This document shows, piece after piece, positions 26,199-29,825 of a stretch of DNA of 64,000 nucleotides; the stretch's first letter is position 1; every line of letters starts with the position of its first letter. The translations under genes and the position numbers were made by a program. The notes under the pieces are model-generated. The model was not told the origin of the DNA, made no database searches, and was given only the letters and a program-made list of their open reading frames with translations. The stretch spans positions 1-64,000 of the forward strand of contig CANFRV010000002.1 in NCBI GenBank assembly GCA_947449575.1. Direction: 5' to 3'. This DNA comes from Flavobacteriales bacterium. Lineage in GTDB: Bacteria > Bacteroidota > Bacteroidia > Flavobacteriales_D > Crocinitomicaceae.

Positions 26199-26206
26199 TA
26201 TCTTTG
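26199..26206 (+). promoter_or_regulatory. -7 box of rpsU
   Basis: TATCTTTG matches TAnnTTTG; transcription would start about 35 nt before the rpsU ATG. The upstream 25 nt are almost pure A/T and hold no TTG at 19 nt, so this may be an A-tract-assisted strong promoter. Confidence 0.6.
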
Positions 26207-26248
26207 TCGTCCAAAGTTGAAAATACAAAATTTAATAAATAGAACAAT

Positions 26249-26440: not shown

Positions 26441-26470
26441 TTTTTAGAAACTTATTTTTAAAAAGATCGT

Positions 26471-26495
26471 AAAGGAGCCAATGGCTCCTTTTTTT
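26471..26495 (+). terminator. Intrinsic terminator of rpsU, overlapping the xer start codon
   Basis: A perfect 9-bp stem (AAAGGAGCC at 26471-26479 with GGCTCCTTT at 26483-26491), a 3-nt loop AAT, and a run of seven T to 26495. The A and T of the loop are the first two bases of the downstream xer ATG at 26481. Confidence 0.85.
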
Positions 26496-27373: not shown

Positions 27374-27670
27374 ATGGATATTCAAGTGCACTCAGTACAT
27401 TTTACAGCTGACAAGAAATTAGTTGATTTCGTTAATGAAAAAGTGGGTAAATTGGAATTGTTTTTCGATAATATTATTGCGAGTGAAGTTTATTTAAGAT
27501 TAGATAAAAGTCAAGATGGAGAAAATAAAATTGCTGAGGTAAAGATATTAATTCCTGGAAAGGAGTTGTTTGCTAAAAAGCAGTGCAAAAGTTTTGAAGA
27601 AGCTGCTGATCTAGCGGTTGAAGCATTGAGGAAACAGGTGCATAAACATAAAGAAAAGAGCACATATTAA
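27374..27670 (+). CDS. raiA: Ribosome hibernation factor, HPF/RaiA family (short form)
   Basis: 98 residues: a single beta-alpha-beta S30AE domain, VHSVHFTADKKLVDFVNEK at the N-terminus and LRLDKSQDGENKIAEVKI in the middle. It lacks the C-terminal dimerisation domain of long HPF. It binds the 30S decoding site during stasis. It lies 2 nt after xer and just before a strong terminator, so it is probably co-transcribed with xer. Confidence 0.93.
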   Translation: MDIQVHSVHFTADKKLVDFVNEKVGKLELFFDNIIASEVYLRLDKSQDGENKIAEVKILIPGKELFAKKQCKSFEEAADLAVEALRKQVHKHKEKSTY

Positions 27671-27687
27671 TAATCATCAATAGCATG

Positions 27688-27723
27688 AAAAAGGTTTCTA
27701 ATTTAGTAGGAACCTTTTTTTTT
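27688..27723 (+). terminator. Intrinsic terminator after raiA
   Basis: AAGGTTTCTA at 27691-27700 pairs with TAGGAACCTT over ten bases with one G-U pair, followed by a run of about nine T. It separates the rpsU-xer-raiA unit from the tRNA operon. Confidence 0.85.
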
Positions 27724-27996: not shown

Positions 27997-28018
27997 CATT
28001 GGTAACATTAAAATATAA

Positions 28019-28091
28019 GCGGGAGTAGCTCAGTTGGTAGAGCGTCAGCCTTCCAAGCTGAGGGTCGCGAGTTCGAGTCTCGTCTCCCGCT
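28019..28091 (+). tRNA. tRNA-Gly (anticodon TCC)
   Basis: 73 nt. Acceptor GCGGGAG pairs with CTCCCGC; anticodon stem TCAGC/GCTGA around CTTCCAA. No encoded CCA. Confidence 0.97.
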
Positions 28092-28114
28092 CTTTTTTTT
28101 GTTCAGTTTTAAAG

Positions 28115-28186
28115 GCCGGTGTAGCTCAGGGGTAGAGTGCTTCCTTGGTAAGGAAGAGGTCACGAGTTCAATTCTCGTCATTGGCT
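28115..28186 (+). tRNA. tRNA-Thr (anticodon GGT)
   Basis: 72 nt. Acceptor GCCGGTG pairs with CATTGGC, with wobble at one pair; anticodon stem CTTCC/GGAAG around TTGGTAA. The T arm has TTCAATT. No encoded CCA. With the TGT tRNA it covers the threonine codons. Confidence 0.95.
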
Positions 28187-28201
28187 CTACAAGTGGATGT
28201 T

Positions 28202-28229
28202 GTTTCACCCAGTATTGGGTGAATTTTTT
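28202..28229 (+). terminator. Hairpin between the tRNA cluster and tuf
   Basis: TTCACCC at 28204-28210 pairs perfectly with GGGTGAA at 28217-28223, 6-nt loop, then TTTTTT. No separate promoter is visible before tuf (28230-28276), so it probably attenuates read-through from the tRNA operon and marks the processing boundary. Confidence 0.7.
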
Positions 28230-29464: not shown

Positions 29465-29484
29465 TTAAGCATATTAATAATAAT

Positions 29485-29512
29485 TAAAAAGGGGAGCTTG
29501 CTCCCCTTTTTA
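29485..29512 (+). terminator. Terminator after tuf
   Basis: A perfect palindromic stem, AAAAAGGGGAGC with GCTCCCCTTTTT, loop of about 2 nt, ending 2 nt before tRNA-Trp. It may partially terminate or define tRNA-Trp processing. Confidence 0.8.
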
Positions 29513-29513
29513 T

Positions 29514-29586
29514 GCGGGCGTAGCTCAGTTGGTAGAGTGGCGGTCTCCAAAACCGTAGGTCGTAGGTTCGAGCCCTGCTGCCCGCG
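29514..29586 (+). tRNA. tRNA-Trp (anticodon CCA)
   Basis: 73 nt. Acceptor GCGGGCG pairs with TGCCCGC (one G-U); anticodon loop CTCCAAA gives CCA. It lies just before secE, as in many bacteria. The 3' CCA end is not encoded. Confidence 0.96.
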
Positions 29587-29603
29587 CATAAAAATATAAA
29601 GAG

Positions 29604-29825
29604 GTGTCTAAAATTAGAGAATATATTAACGAAACTGTGAACGAAATGGTTCACAATGTCACTTGGCCTACTTGGAAAGAACTTCAAAGTAATACAATAA
29701 TAGTTGTTATAGCTTCTGTTATAATTTCTCTGTTTATTTTTGTGATGGATTTTGGATTAGGTATCGTTGGAGATTCAAGTTCTTCTTGGAAAGGTGCTTT
29801 AGGTTTTATTTACGATATGTTTTAA
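29604..29825 (+). CDS. secE: Preprotein translocase subunit SecE
   Basis: 73 residues, the single-helix short form. The amphipathic N-terminal helix with NETVNEMVHNVTWPTWKEL is followed by one transmembrane segment (about 30-50). It clamps SecY in the translocon. The start is GTG at 29604; no ATG is available in frame before the conserved region. It lies 8 nt before nusG. Confidence 0.95.
   Translation: MSKIREYINETVNEMVHNVTWPTWKELQSNTIIVVIASVIISLFIFVMDFGLGIVGDSSSSWKGALGFIYDMF

Follow-up and report, generated by a model that had tools for sequence, protein, structure and literature searches.

A predicted ECF-type promoter for xer and raiA nested in the rpsU terminator of a Crocinitomicaceae bacterium

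How can a recombinase gene be expressed when its start codon lies within the terminator of the gene before it? The question is raised by a 64,000-nt stretch of a Flavobacteriales bacterium of the family Crocinitomicaceae (CANFRV010000002.1, positions 1 to 64,000; hereafter the window), in which the terminator of rpsU has the form AAAGGAGCC-AAT-GGCTCCTTT, a perfect 9-bp stem at 26471-26491 with a run of seven T at 26489-26495, three of them inside the stem. As a G+C-bearing hairpin with a T-tract directly after it, it has the makeup of an intrinsic (Rho-independent) terminator. The ATG of the following gene, xer, occupies 26481-26483 on the same strand, 40 nt after the rpsU stop codon; its A and T are loop bases, the right arm begins with its G, and xer codons 2-5 (GCT CCT TTT TTT) are encoded by the right arm and the T-tract. 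An in-frame TAG (26445-26447) closes the xer frame upstream, and ATG 26481 is the sole ATG, GTG or TTG between this stop and the conserved Xer start region; a canonical alternative start within the window was accordingly dismissed. These features bear out what a preliminary description of the locus had drawn from the letters alone, namely a perfect 9-bp rpsU hairpin with loop AAT and seven T, a single canonical xer ATG that begins in the loop, and early xer codons in the right arm and T-tract (codons 2-5, the ATG itself starting in the loop). The features of the locus are collected in Table 1.

Table 1. Positions in the window of the genes and signals around the rpsU-xer junction.
Feature	Position	Strand	Basis
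Candidate -7 box TATCTTTG (TAnnTTTG), housekeeping promoter of rpsU	26199..26206	+	by eye
rpsU, 30S ribosomal protein bS21, 63 aa	26249..26440	+	TIGR00030, 50.8 bits (cut-off 28.95)
GAAAC, -35-like box of the predicted ECF-type xer promoter; AAC core 26449-26451	26447..26451	+	conservation in family and class
CGTA, -10-like box of the predicted xer promoter, 16 nt after AAC	26468..26471	+	exact pattern match
rpsU terminator hairpin, 9 bp, loop AAT 26480-26482, across the xer start codon	26471..26491	+	family hairpins compared
Predicted xer transcription start, in the loop of the hairpin (12 nt from the C of CGT, about +/-2 nt)	26480	+	inferred from ECF promoter geometry
xer, XerC/D-type tyrosine recombinase, 296 aa	26481..27371	+	TIGR02224 and TIGR02225 matches
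T7 tract of the rpsU terminator; six bases are xer codons 4 and 5	26489..26495	+	
raiA/hpf, ribosome hibernation factor, 2 nt after xer	27374..27670	+	TIGR00741, 49.3 bits (cut-off 40.9)
Probable terminator of the xer-raiA unit, AAAAAGGTTTC-N10-GGAACCTTTTT plus T-tract	27688..27723	+	by eye; not among program-listed hairpins

The product of xer scored 296.8 bits against the XerC model TIGR02224, under its curated cut-off of 335.15, and 241 bits against the XerD model TIGR02225 (cut-off 329.6); given the score under the XerC cut-off, it is named here only as a XerC/D-type tyrosine recombinase. The raiA product scored above the TIGR00741 cut-off and belongs to the HPF/YfiA hibernation factors. 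The consensus TAnnTTTG, by which the candidate -7 box of rpsU was recognized, was taken from passages of PMC9723704 and PMC7366714. As a promoter for xer, the same box was rejected, being no more frequent outside the family (6/61) than in shuffled sequence (mean 5.8). An AAAGGAG in the left arm was likewise rejected as a Shine-Dalgarno sequence of general relevance, because stem sequences vary and the ATG of many relatives follows the T-tract.

The overlap of hairpin and start codon is rare within the part of the genome compared. Among 27 strict terminator-like hairpins in 464 kb (the window and further stretches), the rpsU-xer hairpin is the only one with the first ATG of the next ORF (at least 90 aa) within -40 to +10 of its T run, and at the next-closest terminator the start codon lies 11 nt after the T run. 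Orthologues of xer were detected, at the thresholds used, in 11 of 12 genomes of the genus, 181 of 200 of the family, 254 of 299 of the order and 278 of 295 of the class. The junctions compared are a subset picked by hand among the matches listed so as to spread genera and families, and the junction frequencies given here are therefore not unbiased estimates. Junctions of identical sequence were left out before counting, as were L113 (gap of 760 nt), L181 (463 nt) and L261 (464 nt), while loci for which the fetched 800-1500 nt or so did not show rpsU as the immediate upstream neighbour were counted separately.

On this basis, the hairpin or its T-tract overlaps the xer ATG, or ends no more than 8 nt from it, in 91 of 97 distinct family junctions; four others have the hairpin farther off, one has no hairpin and one has no ATG in range. 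Looking for the hairpin at the rpsU-xer junctions of relatives had been suggested in the preliminary description, and its position across or at the ATG proved to be conserved. The first in-frame xer ATG lies in the loop in 36 family junctions, in the right arm in 3 and after the T-tract in 54 (directly after it in 47); an upstream ATG comes first in two, and L061 has a second ATG in the loop. All seven distinct junctions of the window's genus are of the loop or right-arm form, and they no longer have an ATG as the codon that follows the T-tract (in some, GTG or TTG stands there). The 53 distinct arm pairs of the family are fully paired without exception, a figure biased by the choice of arms according to pairing; re-dealt right arms gave a mean of 63% and a maximum of 71%. 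Present in 91 of 97 distinct family junctions, the overlap or near contact of the hairpin with the xer start is, judged from these sequences, no accident.

Directly before the hairpin, the window carries GAAAC-N16-CGTA (26447-26471), and when the junctions are set side by side the same order recurs: AAC, then CGT at a fixed distance (16 nt, at times 17), and lastly the left arm. AAC-N16-CGT was present in 76 of 98 family junctions (a set that includes L012, whose family is not established), and the 17-nt spacing alone in 13 more. Counted with spacings of 15 to 17, the element occurred in 89 of 97 family junctions, with one AAC letter changed in 5 more and no such element in 3; the Crocinitomix catalasitica junction (L011) is among those that carry it. 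Outside the family, AAC-N16-CGT was found in 25 of 87 rpsU-bearing junctions of other Bacteroidia families, for which dinucleotide shuffling gave a mean of 0.69 and a maximum of 4 in 200 shuffles, and other AAC-CGT spacings between 12 and 20 occurred there at most 3 times. Control regions upstream of rpsU at the same loci held AAC-N16-CGT in 1 of 87 non-family and 0 of 81 family cases, other spacings reaching up to 5 (N20, non-family) and 6 (N18, family). At least one match was seen in 16 of the 48 non-family Bacteroidia families sampled, and none in the other 32. A second sample, drawn by a fixed rule (the second listed genome per family, with replacement at contig edges and some families omitted to fit 20), had the element in 3 of 16 junctions (shuffle mean 0.19, maximum 3 in 1000), and is a weak replicate because two of the three positives come from families that were already positive. 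A run of T after AAC, at positions not used for selection, fits ECF promoters (22 sequences, 19 of them non-family).

The element accompanies xer rather than rpsU. At 11 non-family loci where rpsU was absent from the sequence fetched, it was kept upstream of xer in 7, from 5 families (L180, L189, L196, L262, L265, L266 and L290; shuffle mean 0.42, maximum 3 in 500), in L196 at a distance of 152 nt. Within the family, it was present at 3 of 4 loci without an adjacent rpsU, the genome of L068 having rpsU about 760 nt upstream. L062, L065 and L067 have their terminator at a great distance from xer and, downstream of that terminator, the element close to xer; L064 and L066 lack the element. L157 has lost the hairpin and kept the element, and L177 and L200 seem to have a terminator distinct from the promoter. 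Its retention with xer where rpsU is not adjacent (7/11) assigns the element, on the evidence of gene neighbourhood, to xer. Since it also stands before the hairpin, xer most likely has a transcript of its own that starts inside the hairpin.

ECF-dependent transcription typically starts about 12 nt from the C of CGT. By this geometry, the xer transcript is predicted to begin at about 26480, the first base of the loop, and to carry a single base before its AUG. Predicted leaders (start at C+12) measure 1-5 nt at loop-type junctions, 5-8 nt at right-arm junctions and 14-32 nt where the ATG follows the T-tract. A start at C+12 keeps half of the left arm or less in 81 of 84 junctions, and a start at C+9 in 61 of 84. 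When folded in silico, the start region was more open in xer's own RNA than in read-through RNA at 34 of 34 loop-type, 3 of 3 right-arm and 33 of 44 after-T junctions, the effect being weak in this last group, where 11 of 44 were not more open. Folding thus suggests an insulating role of the hairpin that would be weak where the ATG follows the T-tract. Seven junctions of other families (L170, L173, L176, L190, L258, L274 and L298) have arms 29-36 nt apart with the -10 box in the loop, by sequence a different build with the same geometric result, although the hairpin of L170, being 126 nt upstream of the first ATG, does not hide the start.

We consider it probable that a predicted ECF-type promoter for xer and raiA is nested in the rpsU terminator, and that xer is insulated from read-through. 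Two overlapping signals would then share about 50 bp, the intrinsic terminator of rpsU and an ECF-sigma-type promoter of xer-raiA, whose -10 box touches the left arm of the terminator, so that xer transcription would begin in the loop or where the left arm ends. In the window's genus, the start codon would stand at or just after the transcription start, and the xer mRNA would consequently be nearly leaderless and unable to form the hairpin. RNA reading through from rpsU would carry both arms and keep the xer start in the hairpin. The hairpin may therefore have a double role, ending rpsU transcription and blocking translation of the recombinase from leaked RNA.

The preliminary description had instead proposed that xer might be made from read-through alone. 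In such an attenuated operon, xer and raiA would be expressed only from the rpsU promoter and the start hairpin would lower translation further, as might be gathered from the shared strand, the gap of 40 nt from the rpsU stop codon to the xer ATG and the hairpin that covers the start; a parallel exists in E. coli, where a terminator lies between rpsU and dnaG. We judge this very unlikely, since a conserved promoter-like element stands before the hairpin, follows xer even where rpsU is not its neighbour, and is nearly absent upstream of rpsU itself (1/87 and 0/81). The tie between xer and S21 expression that had been proposed along with it finds no support for the same reason, the element staying with xer where rpsU is elsewhere. 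RNA 5' ends at a separate xer promoter had been named as the finding that would overturn the proposal, and the predicted element comes close to providing such a promoter, the 5' end itself being predicted. Passages of PMC9976891 report that rpsU of F. johnsoniae is transcribed on its own, which argues against the attenuated operon and fits a separate promoter for xer.

A promoter of its own for xer could also coexist with an overlap that reflects genome compaction only, hiding the start having no role. We regard this as a possibility of some weight, albeit not the probable one: element and hairpin are separate in some lineages (L177, L157), no other such overlap was seen among the 27 terminators in 464 kb, and masking by the hairpin is weak in after-T junctions, but against it speak the 91 of 97 family junctions with the hairpin over or next to the start, and also the long-loop hairpins of other families with the -10 box in the loop, a second route to the same geometry. 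It is rather unlikely, in our estimate, that AAC-N16-CGT is a transcription factor site or the site of a non-ECF sigma factor instead of an ECF promoter. No genome-wide regulon was seen, and inverted repeats occur in the spacer in one genus (L057, L058, L060), both of which would suit such a site; the fixed 16(17)-nt spacing, the T-run after AAC, the A/T-rich spacer and the short distance to the xer start are, however, features of promoters. In these three loci of one related genus, the spacer between AAT and CGT reads as an inverted repeat (ATTCTTTGAAAGAAT or a similar sequence) that might be bound by a repressor.

For the predicted ECF-type promoter, the assignment of the sigma factor draws on layout. 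AAC at -35 and CGT at -10 are described as a hallmark of ECF promoters in passages of PMC3426412, where a spacer of 16+/-1 bp is reported for group ECF41, and the xer element has AAC, CGT and this spacing, exactly so in the window and with conserved spacing among relatives. A motif common to a regulon or to the sigma gene, which is usual but not required of every ECF promoter, was not found. GAAAC-N16-CGTA was not enriched genome-wide (15 matches vs 26 for the reversed pattern), nor was spacing 16 enriched in the 464 kb of the own genome, and no regulon is thus seen. The own genome has 14 Sigma70_r4_2 matches, all over the cut-off (one, L256, reads like a response regulator), and none of these sigma-like genes has an N16 element upstream, the frame taken for L245 being doubtful; near forms occur with N17 at L249 and L250 (136 nt before the ATG in the latter) and with N15 at L253. 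Lacking a shared motif, we place the claim of a defined regulon lower. At L249 (G000:C37), AAC-N17-CGT lies 44 nt before the first ATG, which makes this gene a candidate self-controlled ECF sigma factor.

A possible counterpart is the CGT -10 motif SM6 of F. psychrophilum, which the parts of PMC9723704 concerned with it attribute to an ECF sigma factor and whose genes are described there as induced at low nutrients. SM6 promoters and the xer element are alike in the CGT box at -10, and differ in that the own-genome porU and gldN (339-aa frame), homologues of two SM6 genes (T9SS), have no element upstream. The main text of PMC9723704 does not contain the terms xerC, rpsU, S21, hibernation or tyrosine recombinase.

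At 60 of 62 xer orthologue loci (L007 and L024 being one contig) raiA follows xer, and the other two loci end 27 and 50 nt after xer; in a second set of loci, raiA was on the strand of xer in 25 of 29 (the gap computed for L292 is not meaningful). Going by this arrangement, xer and raiA are a close-packed unit, and raiA probably shares the xer promoter, which, with the two genes packed so closely, may be there for the hibernation factor no less than for the recombinase. That raiA follows xer had been remarked upon in the preliminary description as a possible connection to ribosome state; the two genes do form one unit, and the likely link is their common promoter and not the S21 terminator. 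A growth switch can be imagined, doubtful as we hold it to be, in which RNA polymerase, on terminating rpsU transcription, pauses at the U-tract and occludes the xer-raiA promoter beneath, which an ECF sigma factor fires once rpsU is off. The promoter would be shut while S21 is made, and when growth and rpsU transcription stop, the leaderless transcript would give hibernation factor and recombinase.

Taken singly, the components are known: terminators, ECF promoters, and hairpins by which read-through RNA conceals a start. In E. coli, the terminator of the frd operon overlaps the leader of ampC, and the ampC transcript contains the whole hairpin; rpsU-xer is alike in that a terminator overlaps the leader of the next unit, whereas its predicted start lies inside the hairpin. 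IS10 and IS50 protect their transposase from outside transcription by fold-back inhibition, through a hairpin formed only in read-through RNA. They resemble xer as a recombinase shielded in this manner, and differ from it since xer is a chromosomal housekeeping recombinase whose hairpin doubles as a terminator. An analogy may also be drawn with phage genes. According to the sections of PMC2988022 devoted to them, the start regions of T4 I-TevI, I-TevII, I-TevIII, segB, e and soc and of Aeh1 mobE are concealed by a hairpin in long transcripts from upstream; I-TevI and genes like it also have a closer promoter, and the RNA initiated there is not long enough to fold into that hairpin. Like the T4 homing-endonuclease genes, xer would have its start hidden in long RNA and freed in a short RNA of its own, as was found in silico, where the hairpin hides the start in the long RNA and is absent from xer's own. 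The T4 hairpin hides the Shine-Dalgarno site and is not described as a terminator in those sections of PMC2988022, whereas that of xer is the terminator of its neighbour; further differences are the predicted ECF-type promoter and the position of the xer start codon, which lies in the loop.

Within the open-licence literature, we found no conserved ECF-type xer-raiA promoter nested in an rpsU terminator whose loop contains the start codon, nothing on rpsU-xerC in Bacteroidetes and nothing related under promoter-in-terminator phrasing, and in open-licence full text no paper joining hibernation promoting factor, Bacteroidetes, ECF and promoter. If the proposed arrangement holds, one widespread cis-element (16 of 48 non-family families plus the window's family) puts hibernation and a recombinase under one promoter of alternative-sigma type, and the control of hpf in Bacteroidia becomes directly testable at a named position. 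The rpsU-xer case would also mean that a terminator could double as a translational insulator, and that expression by read-through should not be taken for granted where a start codon lies within a terminator.

Some minor observations concern the genomes and genes surveyed. G010, of the same genus and 96% complete, gave no xer match at E <= 1e-60, through an assembly gap or loss. L007 (CAMDAO010000059.1) comes from a record titled as a Chryseobacterium gleum MAG, and its rpsU protein is 100% and its xer product 93% identical to those of the window; the record is probably mislabelled. By eye, rpsU has no visible Shine-Dalgarno sequence in the window at 26210-26248; an extended Shine-Dalgarno sequence is reported for rpsU of many Flavobacteriales in passages of PMC9976891. 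Small ORFs were listed on the - strand of the window at 28008-28208 and 29484-29687. Their translations are reminiscent of the spurious proteins frequently annotated opposite tRNA genes.
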